Position numbers and translations under genes: made by a program
The notes under the pieces: generated by a model
Databases searched by the model: none
Told to the model about the DNA's origin: nothing
Seen by the model: only the letters and a program-made list of their open reading frames with translations
Source of the DNA: Polyrhizophydium stewartii
Taxonomy: Eukaryota; Chytridiomycota; Chytridiomycetes; Rhizophydiales
DNA length: 10,541 nt
Direction of reading: 5' to 3'
NCBI GenBank assembly: GCA_027604665.1
Contig: JADGIZ010000653.1
Location: 1-10,541 of the forward strand
Part shown: positions 1 through 7,895 of the stretch, piece after piece
Numbering within the stretch: position 1 is the first letter of the stretch
How the letters are laid out: each line of letters opens with the position of its first letter

Positions 1-1928
1 AACACCAGGCACCGCATCGACACGGTGCGCTGGGTCGCGCCAGAGGCATACGAGCGCGGATACTGGCCCGATCTGCCACTGGACGTGTTCTCGTTTGCCA
101 TGACGGCGCTCGAGATCCTGACAGCCAAGGTGCCGTTTGTCGAGCTGGCGCGCGACGACCATGTCCGCGCCAAGATCCGCAGCGGCGAGCGGCCGGCGCG
201 GCCAGGCGGCATCCCGGATGCGCTGTGGGCTCTGATCCAAGCCTGCTGGAGCCACGACCCGCAGACCCGGCCGACGTTTGGCGAGATCGTCGAGCGGCTC
301 GGCCCTGCCGTGCACGGGCCGGCGCCAGCAGACCACACGCTCGCTCTGCAGACGGCCGTCAGCCTCGCGCGCGGTCTCCGCCATCGGCTTGACACGGACG
401 TTGCGTCGTTCAACGCACAGGCCGCCGCGGCGCTCGTCGACCAGGTCGAGTGCGTGGCCGCGATGCTCGAGAACTGGGCGTCGGACGCATTCGGCTTCAC
501 GCTCGGCGACATGCAGGCGATCTCGAGCGTGCTCGGCGACATTGACCGCACGCTCGACGAGATGATGCGCAACAACCGGCTGCTGCAGGCGCTCAGCATG
601 TCGAGCGTCGCGGCCAAGCTCGACGAGCTGAGCAGGCGGCTTGTTGCGCTGCAGAAGGTAACGACGCCGTGTGATCGCGCACGGTGCACCTGCCGCGAGA
701 CTGACGCTCGCCGTGTGTCTGCAGTCGTCGCTGCCGAGCGACACGTTTGACGCGCACGCGGTCGCCAAGGCGATCGAGGAGGACGAGATGATGCTGCCGA
801 TCCTCGCCGAGGATCTGATGCAGATCCGCGAGCCTGGGTTCGACCTGAAGGGCCAGTGAGTCTGCTGTTGCGCACGCTCGCACGTCGGCACCATGGCATG
901 CTGATTCTGTCGGCCACAGACACCTTGAGACGCTTGTTGCCATCCAGCAGCACCAAGGCGAGCTTGTCGGCGTGATTCCAGAGGACAAGCGCTCGCAGAT
1001 GCAGCAGCTGATCGACAGGACGCGCGACGGCATTGTGTCGCAGACGGGCCAAGTGCAAGTCGTGCAGCAAGGATGGGTGCTGCTGCCCGAGCACATCTCG
1101 CTCGACGGCACGGTCAGCACGAGCGGCGTGCACCAGGGTCAGTGCAAGGGCGAGCCGGCGTCGTTCATGCCGATCCACGGCGACCTTGGCAACCAGTCTG
1201 TTCTGGACGCAGTCCAAGCCGAGGCGTCGCAGTGGCTCGCGCTGCGCCATGAGAACGTCCTGCGTCTGTTCGGCGTGAGCCTCGATCGTGACCAGCCGCT
1301 TGTTGCGACGTCTCGGTTCGTCAGCGACGTTGCCAGCTTCATTTGCAACAACAGCGGCATGGGTGCAGCGCAGCGCACGCAGATGATCCTCGGCTTTGCT
1401 CGCGGGATGCGGCACCTGCACGAGCAGCAGCCGCCTGTTGTGCACGGCAGCCTCACATCCGGCGCCGTGGTTGTTGGTGAGCGCAGGCGGGCTGCACTCG
1501 CGCAGAACCATGCCAGAGCTGACAGCCAGCGTGCTGCAGATGCCAGCGCGCATGTGTTTGTCTGCGACTTTGGCATCACGGCCATCAAGACGAGCCCAGC
1601 GGCCGACGAGCGATATGCAACCGAGCGCGAGCGGTGGCTGGCGTCGGAGGTGGCTGGCGCGCAGCACACGCCGAGCCGCGCGGCGGACGTCTTTGCGTTT
1701 GCGATGGTGGCCATTGAGATCCTGACCGGGGGCCTGCCGTTTGCGGACGAGGCGCCGAGCGCAATGATTGCCGGCGAGTGGATCTGCGACGGCGAGCGGC
1801 CCGAGCGGCCGGCGGGTGTCTCGGACGGGCTGTGGTCGGTCATTGTGGACTGCTGGCAGCAAGAACCCGAGAGTCGCCCTGCGTTTGGCGAGATTGTGCA
1901 GCGTCTGGAGTCGCTGGTTGGCATGTGA
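1..1928 (+). CDS. TKL kinase / pseudokinase multidomain protein, 5'-truncated by window edge
   Basis: This is the 3' end of a gene with exons 1-657, 725-855, 920-1476 and 1540-1928 (TGA), giving 577 C-terminal residues. All phases agree (0, 2, 1). Residues 1-101 are the C-lobe of a protein kinase, with WVAPE at 11-15, DVFSFAMTALEILT and the CW..DP..RP motif. Residues about 103-219 are helical and end in LDELSRRLVALQK, resembling the MLKL-type four-helix bundle. A linker (220-317) contains HLETLVAIQQ, matching RLETLLAIEQ in the downstream gene. Residues about 318-575 form a second kinase fold that looks catalytically dead: no GxGxxG loop, no Lys at the VAVK position (around residues 347-348), and HGSLTSGAVVV in place of HGDLKxxNVLI (catalytic Asp to Ser, Asn to Ala). 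The alphaC Glu (E364) and DFG (458-460) remain, and the APE motif reads ASE. The likely role is signalling through the pseudokinase under control of the upstream kinase (inference). TKL family membership is clear; substrate and location are unknown. Confidence 0.85.
856..919 (+). other. Phase-2 intron that joins the helical region to the pseudokinase
   Basis: Donor GTGAGT at 856 and acceptor CCACAG ending at 919, with a CTGAT branch-like site at 901. An apparent TGA at 857-859 falls inside the donor. Joining CA with A gives Gln followed by HLETLVAIQQ. The downstream gene has an intron of the same phase at the homologous place (2673-2758), followed by RLETLLAIEQ. This is why I treat 1-1928 as one gene rather than two. 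Confidence 0.85.
1083..1916 (+). other. Pseudokinase domain within the 1-1928 gene
   Basis: Aligned by eye with the first kinase of the downstream gene, the fold is kept: QAEASQWLALRHENVLRLFG against QQEAALWHPLRHENVLSLHG, then GFARGMRHLHEQ, DVFAFAMVAIEILTGGLPF and CWQQEPESRPAFGEIV. The catalytic positions are lost: the glycine loop is degraded to DGTVSTSG, no lysine lies near the VAVK site, HGD is HGS, and the loop Asn is Ala. DFG is intact, so residual nucleotide binding cannot be excluded. The domain is interrupted by one 63-nt intron at 1477-1539. Confidence 0.85.
1477..1539 (+). other. Phase-1 intron between catalytic loop and DFG (pseudokinase)
   Basis: Donor GTGAGC, branch-like GCTGACA near 1519, acceptor CTGCAG at 1539. 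Splicing gives AVVV-D-ASAHVFVCDFG. It occupies the same codon position and phase as the introns at 3328-3408 and 5909-6013. It is 63 nt, an exact multiple of three with no stop, so retention would insert 21 residues in frame. Confidence 0.85.
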
Positions 1929-2070: not shown

Positions 2071-4625
2071 ATGCTCGGCGAGACAGCCCCACCCCCGCAA
2101 GGCGACCCTAACAACCTCTCGCGCACCTACGTCCTGCTGAAAGTAGCCCAGCAGATCAAGGCAGCCGCTGATAGCGCCGCTGCCAACCGCGCCGCGGCTG
2201 AGCAGCTCGCCCGCCACGCCGTCGCTGCGGCAGGGTCGCTTGTCGCCGCCACCTCGGGCTCAGGCAACGAGACGGCCAAGCGCGAAGGCCTGCGTGTGCT
2301 CGGCGCCGTGCTGGACAAGGTCGAGGCGCTGCTCAAGAAGACGGCAGAGCGCAGCGTGCTGCAGCAGTTGCTGCTGCTGCATCCCACGGCTGGTCACATC
2401 AAGGAGCTCGAAGACGAGCTGTCGAACAATCTAAGGGTGCGGCACCCCTGCCGCCGCCTCGGGCAGACCAGCTCTGCCCTCGACTCGTGCTGACCCTTGC
2501 CTCCCGCGCTGGGCTGTGCGGCCCGTTCAATGCGATGGATGCAGGATCTTGGGCTCGCCGTGACGGTCCCCCTTGTTGTCGACCAGGCGATCCAGCTGGA
2601 CTCGGCGAACCTGACTCCTTTGTTCTTGCCGCTGATGGACAAAGCCGATAACAAGTTCGAGGTTGTCAGCGAGTGAGTTTCCACATCTGTCGGCTACACG
2701 GCCGAGACAAGGTCGTCGTTGCTGACCCTCTTGCACCGCCCCTCGCTGCACGGCGCAGACGACTCGAGACGCTGCTCGCCATCGAGCAGAACCGAGATGA
2801 AGTGGTGGCTCTTTTGCCCGCCAACATGCGCGAGCGCCTGCGCTCGCTGCTCGACGCCACGGCCGCAGACATTGTTGCATTCACCGGCCGCACCCTGAGC
2901 GCGCGTCAGGCATGGACGGTCTACCCGAGCGACGTGTACATTGTGCGCTCGCGGCAGCTCGGATCGGGCGGCTTTGGCGAGGTGTTCCGTGCTCGCTGGA
3001 ACGGCCGCGCCGTCGCCGTCAAGACGTTGGGCCGCCGACACGACGCCGAGGCCGATCGTGCGCTGCAGCAGGAGGCGGCGCTCTGGCACCCCCTCCGCCA
3101 TGAGAACGTTCTTTCTCTGCACGGCGTGTGCATCGATGCCGACGAGCCTTTCATTGTCATGCCGATGATGCTCGACAGTGTTGCCGCGTTTCTCGGTCGC
3201 TTCCCAACAGTCGGCGGTGATGTGCGGGCGGGCTTTATTTCCGGCATCGCGAGCGGCATGAAGTACTTGCACGGTCAGAATGTGCCCATCATCCACGGTG
3301 ATCTCAAGGCGGACAATGTGCTGATTGGTAAGTTCCTAGAGGTCATGTATGCACATCAACCCTTCAAAACCCGACTGACGCCAAGTATGCGTGCTTGTGG
3401 TAACGCAGACAACGAGTATCGTGTCTGCATTGCCGACTTTGGCATGGCGTTTGCCAAGGTGCAGTCGCAGGCGGACCCGCGGCGGCGTGGTGCGGCCGTA
3501 CGCTGGATTGCGCCGGAGCGCTTCAAGCGCGGATACAAGCTTGCGCAACCTTACGACGTCTTTTCGTTTGCGATGACGGCCATTGAAGTCATGACTGGCG
3601 CGCTGCCGTTCGCGGACGTGGTGGACGATGCGGCGGTTTCCGCGCTGATCAAGCGCGGCTCGCGTCCGCAGCGGCCCAGCGGCATGTCTGACGCCATGTG
3701 GGATATCGTTGTTGCCTGCTGGAACAAGGATCCCAGCGCGAGGCCGACGTTTGCGGGTGTGGTTGAGAAGCTCTCAAGCGTGCCGGCGGCGGTTCTCGAT
3801 CGCGATAGCGTGCAGTCAATGACCAACGTGGCTCTGGAGATTCAGGCCGAGCGCATCGCTGCTTCAGTTCAGGCGATCCTTGCGCGGTCGTCCAACCTCG
3901 GCGATGACGGCCCTGCTATCCAGGCGCTAGCGCATAATATCACCGCTGCGGCCAAGGCGCTTCTGCCCCGTGTTCGCGACGCCGAGGACGACATCGATAT
4001 CCGAGACGTCGACGCAATCGAGTCGCTCGCCAAGGAAGCCGCAGATCTAGCGGCGTCGGCCTCCAGCACCAGTGTCGGTCCGCACGCGGTCGAGCGCAAC
4101 AAGACGGCTGTGCAGATCGCGGAGCTGTCGCGCAGGGTGCACGAGATGCAAGAGTCAATGCATCTCCCGAGCGCCCCACAAGACGAAGACGCTAAAAAGC
4201 CTTCGACGCCGACACCCCAGGTACGACCCCGAGATGAATGGAGCCCAACATGTGCGACTGATGGATGTTGTGCTGAAACAATGACCTGATGACTGAGAGC
4301 AGGAATCGAGAGAGGAAAGGCTGGCCAGAATCCAGCAGCAGCTTGAGGAGGTCGAGAAGCTGGGACAGGGGCATGCGTCGCCGTTTAAACCATCCGAGCA
4401 ATCGGAAGCCGTGGATACGGTGGCACCAAGCAGTGTGCCGTGGTGGAAACGATTGTTCCGGATGCGAACACGCCCGTCGGAGGCTTCGTCGTCGACTACA
4501 ATGCTTCCCCCGCCAAGATATTCTGTGCCGCAGATGAAGCCACCTATGAGCGTAGCCGGATCGACTCCATCGGAGCTGGACCAGCAAATGCTAGAGCAGA
4601 TTTTGCAGCAGCAGCAGCAGATCTT

Positions 4626-4673
<48 letters not shown>

Positions 4674-6621
4674 AGTCCCGGCGAGGCCATCTCCGACCAT
4701 TAGCGAGTCAGCAGCGCCAGGGTCTGCGCCGCCGCCGCCACCACAGCGCCTTCCGCCGCCGCAGGCACCTTCACGGATACCCTCGCGGCCTTCGGCTGGG
4801 CCTCCTCCTCCGCCTCCGCCTTCTTCAACAGGAAGTATCTACACTGGCCCGCCTCCAAGGGCAGATGGCCAGATCCAGCCTCCAATGCTGCCGCCTTCCT
4901 CAACAGGAGGTGTCTACGATGTCCCGCCTCCAGGGACAGACACTCCGATTCGGCCTCCGGCGCGGCCCTCGACTCGACCGCCTTCCTCGACCGGGGGCCT
5001 CTACGATGGCCCGCCACCAAAGACGGATACTTCCCAGGAACCGCAGCACGGCTATGGCACTCAAGCGCCGCCTTCGCTTCCGACAGTGACGACCGAGTTG
5101 CCGTCAAAGACGCAGGAGTCGGTCACGGTGCAGCTCCCCGGCCCTGCTAAGCCCCTTGAAGATGCGCCGGGTTCCGATCAAAAGCGCAAACGCCGCACAG
5201 ACCAAGGCCAGCCGACTTTGGACTCGCCCGTCGTGGAGCAAGCCAGCGAGGTTGAGGAGGAGGACGATGATGACGACTTCGGCATCACCTTGATGGATGG
5301 CAAGCCCGTGGTCGAATCTGTCTCTATGGGCAATGCTGGTGACGATGACCTCGTGGAATACGACACGGAGATCATCAGCGAGAACGACGAGGGTGCGGGT
5401 AAAACTTCTCCGCAAGTCCCGGCCGGCGGGGAGGGCGGTGGCGGCGTCAGCGGTGGCGTGGCGCAGGACTCGAGCATGGCGGCACTCGCAACGATTGCCG
5501 TTGCCCGCAACCAAATCGAGGTGCTCAAGAGCCAGCCGCTGGGCAAGGGCGGATACGGCGAGGTGTACCGCGGACGCTTTGACGCCTCGACAGTTGCCGT
5601 CAAGCTGATCCGCGCCAAGCACCAGTCTGCGCTCCTGCCGATGCTGCGCAAGGAGGTTCTGGCGTGGTATCCCCTGCGGCACCGCAACATTGTGCCTCTG
5701 ATGCGCGTGTGCTTGGACACCGAGTGGCCGCTACTGCTGATGCCGCTGATGAGGGAGGATGCGCGGGACTTTGTGTGCAAGCGGCCGGATCTGAGCGTCG
5801 AGTCGCGCACGTGGATGCTGGGCCAGATTGCGCGCGGCATGGCGTACATGCACCAGAGCACTCCGCCCGTGATCCACGGCGACCTCAAGGCCAACAATGT
5901 GCTGATTGGTACGTGCGTGCGAACGTGTGCTGGTCTGGCAGACACGCTTGCACGCAGATGTGTTATGCTCTGCGAGTGATGCTGACGCTGCGACTGCTGC
6001 GCATGGCGTGCAGGCGAGGACGGAAGCGTATGCATTACCGACTTCGGCATGTCGTTTGTCAAGACATCGCCAACGGCCGACACGGTGCGGCGCACGCACG
6101 CGCTGCGCTGGGTCGCGCCTGAAGCGCACGATGTCGGGTACAAGCTCGACCTGCCATCGGATGTGTTTGCGTTTGCCATGACGGCCGTGGAGATCCTGAC
6201 GGGCGAGCTGCCGTTTGCCGAGGAGTCGTCGGACGAGATTGTCAAGGAGTGGGTGTTGGACGGCGAGCGGCCCTACCAGCCCAAAGGCACGCCCGAGTCG
6301 CTGTGGCAGATTCTCGACGACGCGTGGCACCACGATCCCGCTAAGCGGCCGGAGTTTAGCAAGATCGTTGAGATGCTCGATGCGCTGCCGTCGACCCCGA
6401 TCTCAGTCTCGGGCGAGGTGCCTGTCAAGGGCAGGATCCAGAACAATAGCGGCTTGAGCAGCGCCGTCGGAAGCGGATCGACGGCGGCAGACTCGAGGGG
6501 AAATGGTACGTTGGCCGTGATGGGCCAGATCTGTGCAGATCGCCTTCCGTGTTGGTTACTCTGCTGACACCTGCGGCCCCTGGTGCGGACTTTTGATGCA
6601 GCTGCGTCGATGCCAGCCTGA
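2071..6621 (+). CDS. Dual TKL kinase with MLKL-like helical N-terminus, polyQ and proline-rich insert
   Basis: Exons are 2071-2436, 2545-2672, 2759-3327, 3409-4220, 4303-5908, 6014-6505 and 6602-6621. They sum to 3993 nt with consistent phases, giving 1330 aa. Residues about 15-125 form an Ala/Leu-rich helical bundle ending KELEDELSNNLR-DLGLAVTV, resembling the MLKL N-terminal fold. Residues 126-225 are a linker with RLETLLAIEQ. Kinase 1 (226-478) has GSGGFG at 233-238, VAVK with K253, E270, HGDLKADN with D346 and N351, DFG 364-366 and WIAPE 387-391. A second helical region (480-600) contains IAELSRRVHEMQ. The insert has (Q)5 and (Q)15 runs (729-748), three PPSSTG-x-x-Y repeats (796-865), KRKRR (919-923) and an acidic stretch (941-950). 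Kinase 2 (1033-1284) has GKGGYG, K1059, E1076, HGDLKANN with D1152 and N1157, and DFG 1170-1172. Both kinases look active and are non-RD (HGD for HRD). The start is the first ATG of the open frame, 142 bp after the previous gene. Alternative: without the last splice, the protein ends at 6567. Confidence 0.85.
2437..2544 (+). other. Phase-0 intron at the end of the helical bundle
   Basis: Donor GTGCGG at 2437, CTGAC branch-like site at about 2489, and the next AG downstream is ATGCAG ending at 2544. Joining gives ELSNNLR-DLGLAVTV, a natural continuation of the last helix. The equivalent phase-0 intron in the upstream gene is 658-724, after LSRRLVALQK. Without splicing the frame stops at 2493. 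Confidence 0.75.
2673..2758 (+). other. Phase-2 intron before the first kinase domain
   Basis: Donor GTGAGT at 2673, branch-like GCTGACC near 2720, acceptor GCGCAG ending at 2758. The GTG at 2673 is therefore the donor and not a start codon. Joining GA with A restores Glu followed by RLETLLAIEQ, matching the intron at 856-919 in position and phase. Confidence 0.85.
3328..3408 (+). other. Phase-1 intron between catalytic loop and DFG (kinase 1)
   Basis: Donor GTAAGT, branch-like GACTGACG near 3373, acceptor ACGCAG at 3408. Joining gives NVLI-D-NEYRVCIADFG. It is 81 nt, a multiple of three with no stop, so an unspliced message stays in frame with 27 extra residues between the catalytic loop and DFG. 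Confidence 0.85.
4221..4302 (+). other. Phase-0 intron joining the kinase-1 half to the polyQ/kinase-2 half
   Basis: Donor GTACGA follows CAG at 4220; acceptor GAGCAG ends at 4302. Downstream codons read ESREERLARIQQQLEEVEKL, a charged helix that continues in the same frame into the polyQ region. Without splicing the frame stops at 4287-4289. This junction is what makes the two kinase domains one protein. Confidence 0.75.
4606..4671 (+). repeat. Coding CAG microsatellite, (CAG)5-ATCTTG-(CAG)15
   Basis: Five CAG codons (4606-4620), then ATC TTG, then fifteen uninterrupted CAG codons (4627-4671). They encode two glutamine tracts split by Ile-Leu, just after the helix-like ELDQQMLEQIL. No CAA codon interrupts the long run, so length variation between strains or alleles is expected. 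Confidence 0.97.
4813..5019 (+). repeat. Three degenerate proline-rich Tyr repeats (PPSSTG-x-x-Y-x-x-PPP)
   Basis: Copies are PPSSTGSIYTGPPP (Tyr805), PPSSTGGVYDVPPP (Tyr830) and PPSSTGGLYDGPPP (Tyr859), spaced 25 and 29 residues apart and separated by D-rich and P-rich spacers. Third-position differences between copies show that the peptide, rather than the DNA, is conserved. Confidence 0.9.
5909..6013 (+). other. Phase-1 intron between catalytic loop and DFG (kinase 2)
   Basis: Donor GTACGT, branch-like GCTGACGC near 5980, acceptor GTGCAG at 6013. Joining gives NVLI-G-EDGSVCITDFG. Position and phase are identical to 1477-1539 and 3328-3408, but this copy carries an in-frame TGA (5977-5979), so retention would truncate the kinase. 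Confidence 0.88.
6506..6601 (+). other. Probable last intron of the dual kinase gene
   Basis: Donor GTACGT, branch CTGACA near 6563, acceptor ATGCAG at 6601. Splicing ends the protein GNAASMPA with TGA at 6619-6621. Without it the protein would read through to TGA at 6565-6567. The strong signals favour splicing. Confidence 0.7.
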
Positions 6622-7008
6622 ACGCCATCTGATCGGGTTGTGCGTCCTGCACGCGGGGACATATTGGACGACTCTATAGGTCCCTGCCGGCAAACGCGAG
6701 CGGCCTCGCACAACGCGGCTCAGCCGGCGGCGTCGGCAGGCTGCTCACAGTAAAGCTCATTTTGTGGTCACTCTTGTGGGAGAGTGCGTTGTGGTTCCGG
6801 TCGCGGCCGGCAGGTTCTGCTGGATCGCAGGGAGCGTGAGACGATACAGCGCCACAAGAGCGACAATCGCGCTTGTCTCTGCCATGCGGGCCGTCGGCGG
6901 CTGCGGGGCGGGCGGGGATCTCGACCAGCGCACCTGATGAGACGCCGTGACTTCAGGCTGCCCAGAGCCGAGGCTGCAAAACTTTGCTTTGCCACACAAC
7001 CAGCGAGG
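6622..7008. other. Intergenic region, no gene recognised
   Basis: These 387 bp lie between the dual kinase and the cytochrome b561 gene and should hold the 3' UTR of the first and the promoter and 5' UTR of the second. A 9-bp inverted repeat, CTCTTGTGG (6771-6779) and CCACAAGAG (6852-6860), is present. A TATA-like CTATAGG sits at 6673. Neither can be assigned a function. Open frames here are short or in GC-rich shadow and have no recognisable product. Confidence 0.5.
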
Positions 7009-7895
7009 ATGATGTACACGAGGCTTGGCCTGCGACTGACGGTGTGGACGTACGTGGCGACGGTGCTCGCGACCGTGTACAACTCGCGGCCGCTGTCGCT
7101 CTTCTCGGCGCACCCGGTGTGCATGTCGCTGTTCCTGGCCGTTGGCGCCGAGGCGCTGCTGTCGTTCGAGCCGGTCATCCTCCGCAAGCGCGACGGCGGC
7201 CAGAAGCGCGCACCGCGCATGAGCCAGGTCGACCGCCACCGCGGCCTCATGTCGCTGGGCCTCGTCTTCCTGCTTGCGGGCTTTGCGGGTGCGTGGGCGC
7301 TGGGCGTGCGCTGCGCGGGAGGGGGGTGTGCGCGAGGCGAGGCGGCGAGGCGGCGGCTGCCGGCTGCCGGCTGCAGACACCTCGCAGCCGCGCTGTCAGG
7401 GAGGCTGGCGGGCACGGCCCGACCGCCGGGCACGGCGATTTGTGTGTGCCCGCACGCCCCGCACATGCCTCTGCGGCGGCCGTCCCCGAGGGGCCGGCGC
7501 ACGCTAACGGGCCGGCACACCCACGCACAGCCATCTACTACGCCAAGGAGGAGAAGAACCGCCCGCACTTCTCGACGACGCACGGCAAGTACGGCGTGGT
7601 GCTCGTCGGCTGGGGCATCGCGCAGATGGTTGCCGGCGGCGTCTTCCACAACTTCAACTTCCCGCGTACGCTGCTCAAGATCCACGGCATCGGCGGCATC
7701 GCCATGCTTGTCCTCACGGGCTGGTTCACGTACTTTACCCAGATCGACCGCGTCAAGGGCTGGTTCACCATGGCATCCATGAACATCCCGTATGCGCAGC
7801 TGGTGCCGTTCAGCGTCATTGCCAAGTACTCGCTCGGCGCCGCCACGGTGCTGCTGGCGCTCAACTACATGAACAACCGCCAGGGCCGCGCGTAA
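7009..7895 (+). CDS. Cytochrome b561-domain membrane protein (CYB561D1/D2-like)
   Basis: Two exons, 7009-7288 and 7531-7895, encode 214 aa, close to the roughly 220 aa usual for CYB561D2-type proteins. These transmembrane di-haem proteins pass electrons from ascorbate or a similar donor across a membrane, often serving ferric reduction. The four haem-ligand His are in family contexts: H35 in FSAHPVCMS, H77 in DRHRGL, H111 in TTHGKYG and H145 in LKIHGIGG. The segment FSAHPVCMSLF-x6-EALL is diagnostic. Hydrophobic segments at about 10-24, 36-54, 79-97, 112-130, 145-162 and 183-205 give six membrane spans. The start is the first of two adjacent ATGs; the first span follows at once, with no signal peptide. 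The gene converges on the WD40 gene, with 105 bp between stop codons. It has no evident functional link to the kinases. Whether it reduces iron in vivo is not visible. Confidence 0.92.
7289..7530 (+). other. Intron of the cytochrome b561 gene (242 nt)
   Basis: Donor GTGCGT at 7289, branch GCTAACG at about 7503-7509, acceptor CGCACAG ending at 7530. Phase 1: G plus CC gives Ala, joining LLAGFA-A-IYYAKEE across the third span. It is far longer than every other intron here and is strongly G/C-biased, with a GGGGGG run at 7321-7326 and repeated GCCGGCTGC. Confidence 0.9.

Follow-up and report, generated by a model that had tools for sequence, protein, structure and literature searches.

Introduction

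Proteins in which a four-helix bundle precedes a brace and a kinase or pseudokinase are already known from animals, plants and fungi. Animal MLKL keeps the VAVK lysine of its pseudokinase and loses the DFG motif. The N-terminal helix is key to the membrane targeting of HET-S, a role hypothesized to be family-wide (PMC12881547). A 2022 survey of early-diverging fungi placed MLKL homologues in Glomeromycotina only (PMC8778642), a Basidiobolus MLKL is named in another paper (PMC11476962), and a 2010 survey described leucine-rich repeat (LRR) receptors as largely absent from fungi (PMC2939053). Here we analyze gene 1 of Polyrhizophydium stewartii, a chytrid of the Rhizophydiales that lives as a saprophyte and is a close relative of Batrachochytrium dendrobatidis (PMC12204190). 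The gene opens the window, by which we mean the entire contig C649 (JADGIZ010000653.1, 10,541 bases). Because the assembly searched (12.86 Mb in 690 contigs) is incomplete compared with the published 31 Mb long-read assembly (PMC12204190), the copy counts given below are lower bounds.

The reading that we favor, at a probability of about 0.6, is that the visible gene 1 encodes the terminal unit of a tandem kinase protein, in which an MLKL_N/HeLo four-helix bundle, a helical brace and a pseudokinase stand in frame behind a kinase and may have a regulatory role. It is carried by the domain order, a family link to MLKL_N, lost catalytic residues and a repeated in-frame fusion. Our literature search, which had most subscription journals outside its range, found no description of MLKL-like bundle-kinase proteins in chytrids among the matches listed. 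Besides the 2022 survey, the papers listed as pairing MLKL with Chytridiomycota were one that names the phylum once, for TIR domains in nucleotide-binding leucine-rich repeat receptors (NLRs), and a study in mice; the word "chytrid" has zero occurrences in the main text of the HeLo/HELL review (PMC12881547).

Structure of gene 1

Gene 1 is a single open frame over exons 1-657, 725-855, 920-1476 and 1540-1928, with GT/AG introns whose phases (0, 2 and 1) recur in introns 1-3 of gene 2. It is already under way at base 1, and since the contig starts inside the activation segment of an upstream kinase, the lysine, catalytic Asp and DFG of that kinase are missing from view. No contig overlapping the 5' end was found, the first 310 bases matching elsewhere only at 67-81% identity. 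The features are listed below; E-values for segments B, C and K1 come from iterated profiles to which the window itself had contributed.

1-300, forward strand: C-lobe of the upstream kinase, of tyrosine kinase-like (TKL) type, in the same exon as the bundle and cut by the contig start (K2 segment profile, 6e-45).
307-657, forward strand: exon part with the four-helix bundle, family segment A at 364-642 (leave-out profiles, AlphaFold).
725-855, forward strand: exon with the first brace segment, segment B at 743-844 (segment B profile, 1e-13; splice frame).
920-1476, forward strand: exon with a further brace segment (segment C, 924-1100; 6e-20) and a degenerate kinase N-lobe up to the catalytic loop (1116-1475; K1, 8e-36).
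1540-1928, forward strand: last exon, pseudokinase from DFG to the end of the C-lobe, TGA at 1926-1928 (K2, 2e-45; Pfam kinase).

On the spliced protein, Pfam reports a kinase at residues 358-571 and the upstream C-lobe as a second stretch; Rfam gave no match at gathering scores. The GC content by codon position is 0.70/0.48/0.81 in the pseudokinase part, near that of the bundle (0.72/0.39/0.87) and of the C-lobe (0.70/0.51/0.85), and the pseudokinase part therefore reads as coding.

A first-pass annotation, made from the letters alone, had taken the DNA to be probably fungal, which is borne out by a 100% match to a deposited P. stewartii protein and by Pfam matches to Zn_clus (seven) and Chitin_synth_1N (one). 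It had further read the spliced 307-1928 as a bundle, a linker and a kinase fold without the glycine loop, VAVK lysine, catalytic Asp and loop Asn, in the domain order of MLKL. The splice frame and an alignment of 25 kinase units agree, the linker being the brace: the VAVK lysine is replaced by M, the HxD Asp by S and the catalytic-loop Asn by A, and the glycine loop is gone. The same alignment shows DFG and the alpha-C Glu to be retained, which the annotation had not mentioned. It had also called the upstream C-lobe active-looking; the residues by which this, and any activation in cis by that kinase, would be judged lie beyond the contig start. Overall, what it observed is confirmed, and what it made of the observation is partly supported, as set out below.

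Catalytic residues across the family

The kinase set comprises 25 units at a profile E below 1e-30, drawn from 29 fetched stretches and the window; 12 of 37 matches were weaker and were excluded. Of the 25 units, 12 are missing one or more of Lys, HxD Asp, Asn and DFG Asp. The other 13 were counted as active-looking, although the DFG column of one of them, C474, is unreadable. Only gene 1 and C465 have Lys, Asp and Asn changed together (glycine loop and DFG of C465 are unreadable). In both C311 and C518 an active-looking unit comes after a pseudokinase unit. On a tree of the 25 kinases the dead label needs at least five changes (bootstrap 4-7; shuffled mean 8.7); its well-supported branches force just one, and the motif columns were kept in the tree. 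Repeated loss of catalytic residues across the family is likely from these alignments.

In-frame fusion and architecture of relatives

The junction between the upstream kinase C-lobe and the bundle lies within one exon and one frame of gene 1; the first-pass annotation had placed the two in the same polypeptide. The protein of this exon has 38 other matches in the genome, and seven of these cross the junction into the bundle in one open frame (three in C623, two in C562 and one each in C518 and C311). A further match, in C366, crosses the junction (residues 4-188) with no bundle segment there and was not counted. Since the junction recurs at seven other places, the fusion is a repeated trait.

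Two productive searches listed 17 deposited relatives, from P. stewartii, B. dendrobatidis and B. salamandrivorans. LRRs, a feature of many immune proteins, stand beside the kinase in 12 of the 17, the remainder being P0002, P0005, P0121, P0123 and P0126. The order bundle region, kinase, repeats is found in P0001, P0003, P0004, P0127, P0128, P0129 and P0132, where the bundle region is assigned by MLKL_N matches, above the cut-off in P0132 and sub-threshold in P0001 and P0004, and by alignment in P0003 and P0127-P0129. P0133 has a kinase and repeats. P0124 runs from a bundle through repeats to a pair of bundle-kinase units, and so does P0125 after a differing start; the catalytic loop is dead in the first unit of the pair. 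Pfam showed no LRRs in the visible parts of either window gene. The source database labels five of the P. stewartii kinase proteins (P0002, P0005, P0122, P0124 and P0125) "U1 snRNP protein", which seems to be a misannotation. The first unit, at C562:5371 and in P0123, begins with MGNKQSSP and a basic patch ahead of the bundle, a start that we take to resemble that of N-myristoylated proteins.

Relationship of the bundle to MLKL_N

Iterated profiles showed that segment A (the bundle) and segments B and C (the brace) recur ahead of kinases. Segment A has 24 matches over the 29 stretches and the window, the window's two included, and three of them (C311:9443, C311:9889 and C623:10497, the last near a contig end) lack an accompanying downstream kinase within the stretch; the census omitted loci L011, L012, L017, L023 and L024, which overlap with others or with the window. 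Leave-out profiles were built without window sequences, since the iterated ones had included the window's copies. A six-protein profile of this kind scored the gene 1 bundle at 43.9 bits (E 1.9e-13), compared with a maximum of 10.0 bits over 7,300 shuffled frames and 6.5 bits (E 0.076) on the reversed gene 1 frame. The 27-bit cut-off of PF22215 (MLKL_N) is exceeded by P0002 (32.0), by P0132 of B. dendrobatidis (28.8) and by unit 5 of C623 (10485-10784; 27.3); among 14 control genomes, all prokaryotes, one was matched and none above the cut-off. A profile of these three members in turn finds the gene 1 bundle at 30.5 bits (E 2.7e-9), where the best of 7,300 shuffled frames reached 6.9 bits and reversed frames gave nothing at E up to 1. 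This match spans helices 2-4, starting in helix 2 and leaving helix 1 uncovered. The B. dendrobatidis bundle alone scores 5.4 bits against the window, where shuffles reach 3.9, and the link to it therefore goes via the family. Taken together, the profile comparisons support a relationship of the gene 1 bundle to the Pfam MLKL_N proteins, and with it an MLKL-like order of the last unit.

For the gene 1 segment itself, Pfam at E up to 10 lists only ATG17_like (E 0.076, 12.9 bits vs a cut-off of 43), MLKL_N being absent from the list; RPW8 and HeLo are listed for neither the gene 1 nor the gene 2 segment at that limit. At E up to 1, MLKL_N is listed for 5 of 13 bundle sequences (alignment A5), for 4 of 10 whole proteins (A4) and, in the 18-member alignment A1, for the first member only, among 25 of 48 families listed. 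RPW8 matches one of the 13 bundle sequences, P0002, at 22.4 bits, under its cut-off of 30.4. Sequence searches of the PDB with profiles A1 and A5 and with a single query listed no MLKL chain and instead returned designed helical and other unrelated proteins; the whole-protein profile A4 returned kinases and LRR proteins (best 60 of 3,116). A first protein search with the gene 2 bundle region scored 7,996 candidates and had no match at E 0.01, though P0001-P0004 lay within the length range; alanine-rich words had probably filled the candidate list. Viral contigs gave 45 pattern matches, with no relative among them. A second MLKL_N-like group, with a DFVPxPGL start and each member adjoining a kinase, scores 20.9-24.5 bits, below the cut-off (C253:7931-8200, C135:8077-8331, C409:6399-6653, C57:22704-22958 and C161:9316-9567).

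Position and predicted structure of the bundle

The gene 1 bundle is internal: it follows a kinase C-lobe encoded by the same exon and has no free N-terminal first helix. Through helix 1, its best 19-residue hydrophobicity mean is 0.56, the second lowest of 24 copies, rising to 1.04 when helix 2 is included, and the first 60 residues of the segment carry a net charge of -4. Hydrophobic starts, with best means of 1.70-2.03, are found in unit 5 of C623, C310, C575, P0001, P0002 and P0132. The idea that N-terminal copies generally start with a hydrophobic helix was considered and rejected, the first and internal groups not being significantly different (p 0.16). The first-pass annotation had likened this unit to a membrane-permeabilizing executor, a role that finds no support here: Pfam reports no MLKL_N, and because the bundle is internal, its start polar and its helix 1 diverged and outside the three-member match, an executor role is doubtful, as is pore formation by the unit. 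N-terminal paralogue bundles with hydrophobic starts would be better candidates for membrane-acting executors.

AlphaFold predicts four helices for the 117-residue gene 1 segment, as the annotation had expected (residues 7-30, 37-59, 66-98 and 100-116; mean predicted local distance difference test (pLDDT) 75.9, predicted template modeling score (pTM) 0.52). Its model of P0002 has a bundle with a short helix between helices 3 and 4, three brace helices and a kinase (mean pLDDT 81); in gene 1 the brace between bundle and kinase is represented by segments B and C, identified by profiles. Fold comparison does not speak for MLKL in particular, in that MLKL did not rank above other bundles for gene 1. 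Foldseek gave no match under 0.001 for the gene 1 bundle. The VIA table of the fold comparison contains no HeLo, RPW8 or ZAR1 chains and hence excludes nothing about them, and both result tables of the P0002 fold searches were filled by kinase matches, which makes them uninformative on the bundle.

Gene 2, the paralogue downstream

Gene 2 follows gene 1 on the same strand, with these exons:

2071-2436, forward strand: exon 1, N-terminal four-helix bundle, paralogue of that in gene 1 (leave-out six-protein profile, 56.6 bits).
2545-2672, forward strand: exon 2, first brace segment (segment B, 1e-14).
2759-3327, forward strand: exon 3, N-lobe of an active-looking kinase with HGDLKADN, behind a further brace segment (segment profiles, kinase motifs).
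3409-4220, forward strand: exon 4, first kinase C-lobe (K2, 2e-51), with a weak third bundle behind it (about 3855-4166).
4303-5908, forward strand: exon 5 in our model, poly-Q and proline-rich linker and second active-looking kinase N-lobe at 5539-5907 (kinase motifs).
6014-6505, forward strand: exon 6, second kinase C-lobe at 6019-6378 (K2 profile); its precise start and the gene's 3' end are provisional.

The sole Pfam family listed for the N-terminal bundle is MLKL_N, at E 0.17 and 11.9 bits, below the cut-off of 27. The six-protein profile scores the weak third bundle (3855-4166), between the two kinases, at 22.5 bits (E 8.2e-7), the three-member profile at only 8.5 bits (E 0.018). The linker contains a GCA run encoding poly-Q (4605-4672) and a 75-base repeat (4816-4958). 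The deposited P. stewartii protein P0121 (HK105_006940) is 100% identical to gene 2 over the 480 residues searched. Our model and P0121 coincide over exons 1-3 and the greater part of exon 4; beyond that, P0121 leaves out some of the linker and places one later junction differently. The P0121 model, spanning 2071-7895, merges gene 2 with a downstream cytochrome b561-like gene (PF03188); by appearance the window holds two genes there.

Discussion

If gene 1 does end a tandem kinase protein, its pseudokinase could, by analogy with plant tandem kinase-pseudokinases, be the regulatory half of a kinase-pseudokinase switch, whether as a phospho-acceptor, as an allosteric partner or as a bait. Such a switch would act on the bundles, and the internal bundle of gene 1 might serve oligomerization or autoinhibition.

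An alternative that we consider rather unlikely makes the bundles plain scaffolds or dimerization adaptors of chytrid-specific RAF-like signaling kinases with no role in cell death. The 13 active-looking units among 25 would suit it, as would the many bundles that lack a hydrophobic start and the MLKL fold match that is no better than that to other bundles. Three members above the MLKL_N cut-off, one sub-threshold RPW8 match and the LRRs of 12 of the 17 deposited relatives argue against it. In the opposite direction, the Rhizophydiales might possess NOD-free receptors that unite an LRR sensor, an MLKL-type executioner bundle, a pseudokinase and an active kinase in one polypeptide, a complete necrosome-like circuit in cis whose tandem expansion would resemble that of immune receptor repertoires and whose dead-kinase units, that of gene 1 among them, would evolve as switches or baits. 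We regard this larger scheme as speculative and quite unlikely.

The first-pass annotation had suggested that activator and effector could be fused. Spelled out, a killing bundle in gene 1 would be restrained by its pseudokinase and freed on phosphorylation by the upstream kinase fused to it, so that a single chain would act as a necrosome. The domain order and the fusion, the MLKL_N family link and the four predicted helices are all consistent with this. We nevertheless hold it to be improbable: the bundle sits internally between two kinase domains, its helix 1 is polar and outside the three-member match, with a net charge of -4 over the first 60 residues, and the upstream kinase is out of view before its activation segment. 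Membrane attack in the superfamily is, moreover, tied to the extreme N-terminal helix (PMC12881547).

That the last unit of gene 1 is a functionless, decaying duplicate would explain why its kinase is, with C465, the most degenerate of the 25 and why its end branch measures 1.18 against a median of 0.34. The four open exons, the GT/AG introns in phases matching those of gene 2 and the strong codon-position GC pattern make decay very improbable. An unrelated coiled coil, helical by composition, which the annotation had named as the result that would overturn it, would agree with the sole Pfam listing of ATG17_like and with the designed helical proteins that head the PDB sequence matches of the family profile, but is largely refuted by the leave-out profiles (E 1.9e-13 and 2.7e-9) with their shuffled (maxima 10.0 and 6.9 bits) and reversed controls and is hardly credible.

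On the reading of gene 1 as a regulatory tandem unit, and if the function proposed for the family is true, MLKL-type machinery would reach the early-diverging fungi that form zoospores, the amphibian pathogen B. dendrobatidis among them, and would there be joined directly to kinases and LRRs. The family would link the observations of MLKL in Glomeromycotina only (PMC8778642) and of LRR kinases in B. dendrobatidis (PMC2939053), and would suggest a way, open to testing, in which chytrids might sense non-self. With its naturally occurring active-looking and dead units, the family also lends itself to tests of how a bundle is controlled by a pseudokinase.

Comparison with known systems

Gene 1 shares with animal MLKL the order of bundle, brace and pseudokinase and is tied to Pfam MLKL_N through its relatives. 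It differs in that its bundle is not N-terminal and is fused behind another kinase domain, and in that it loses the VAVK lysine and keeps DFG, the reverse of MLKL. Wheat Pm13, a plant MLKL_N-kinase, likewise has a four-helix MLKL_NTD, a three-helix brace and a kinase, the last catalytically intact by its residues like the first kinase of gene 2; Pm13 is a single unit with an N-terminal bundle, whereas in gene 1 the bundle is internal and the kinase dead, and LRRs are not mentioned in the available text (PMC10951266). Fungal HeLo/HELL domains belong to the same four-helix superfamily, and some HELL domains occur in kinase or pseudokinase proteins, but tandem arrays and LRRs are not described in the available part of the review (PMC12881547).

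Plant tandem kinase-pseudokinases such as WTK1/Yr15 combine a kinase and a pseudokinase in one chain (PMC6170490); gene 1 has two kinase folds in one frame, the catalytic half of the first lying off the contig. The 92 plant proteins have, in the text available, no further conserved domains, whereas the chytrid kinase units mostly have their own bundle and brace (PMC6170490). In B. dendrobatidis four genes with LRRs and a kinase were reported, with no evidence of transmembrane segments and, in the available text, no mention of MLKL_N (PMC2939053); P0132 also combines LRRs and a kinase. The MLKL-like layout of the gene 1 unit is thus real and of a kind already known, and what is new is the in-frame tandem arrays that mix active-looking and dead kinases, most with a bundle of their own, together with their link to leucine-rich repeats.
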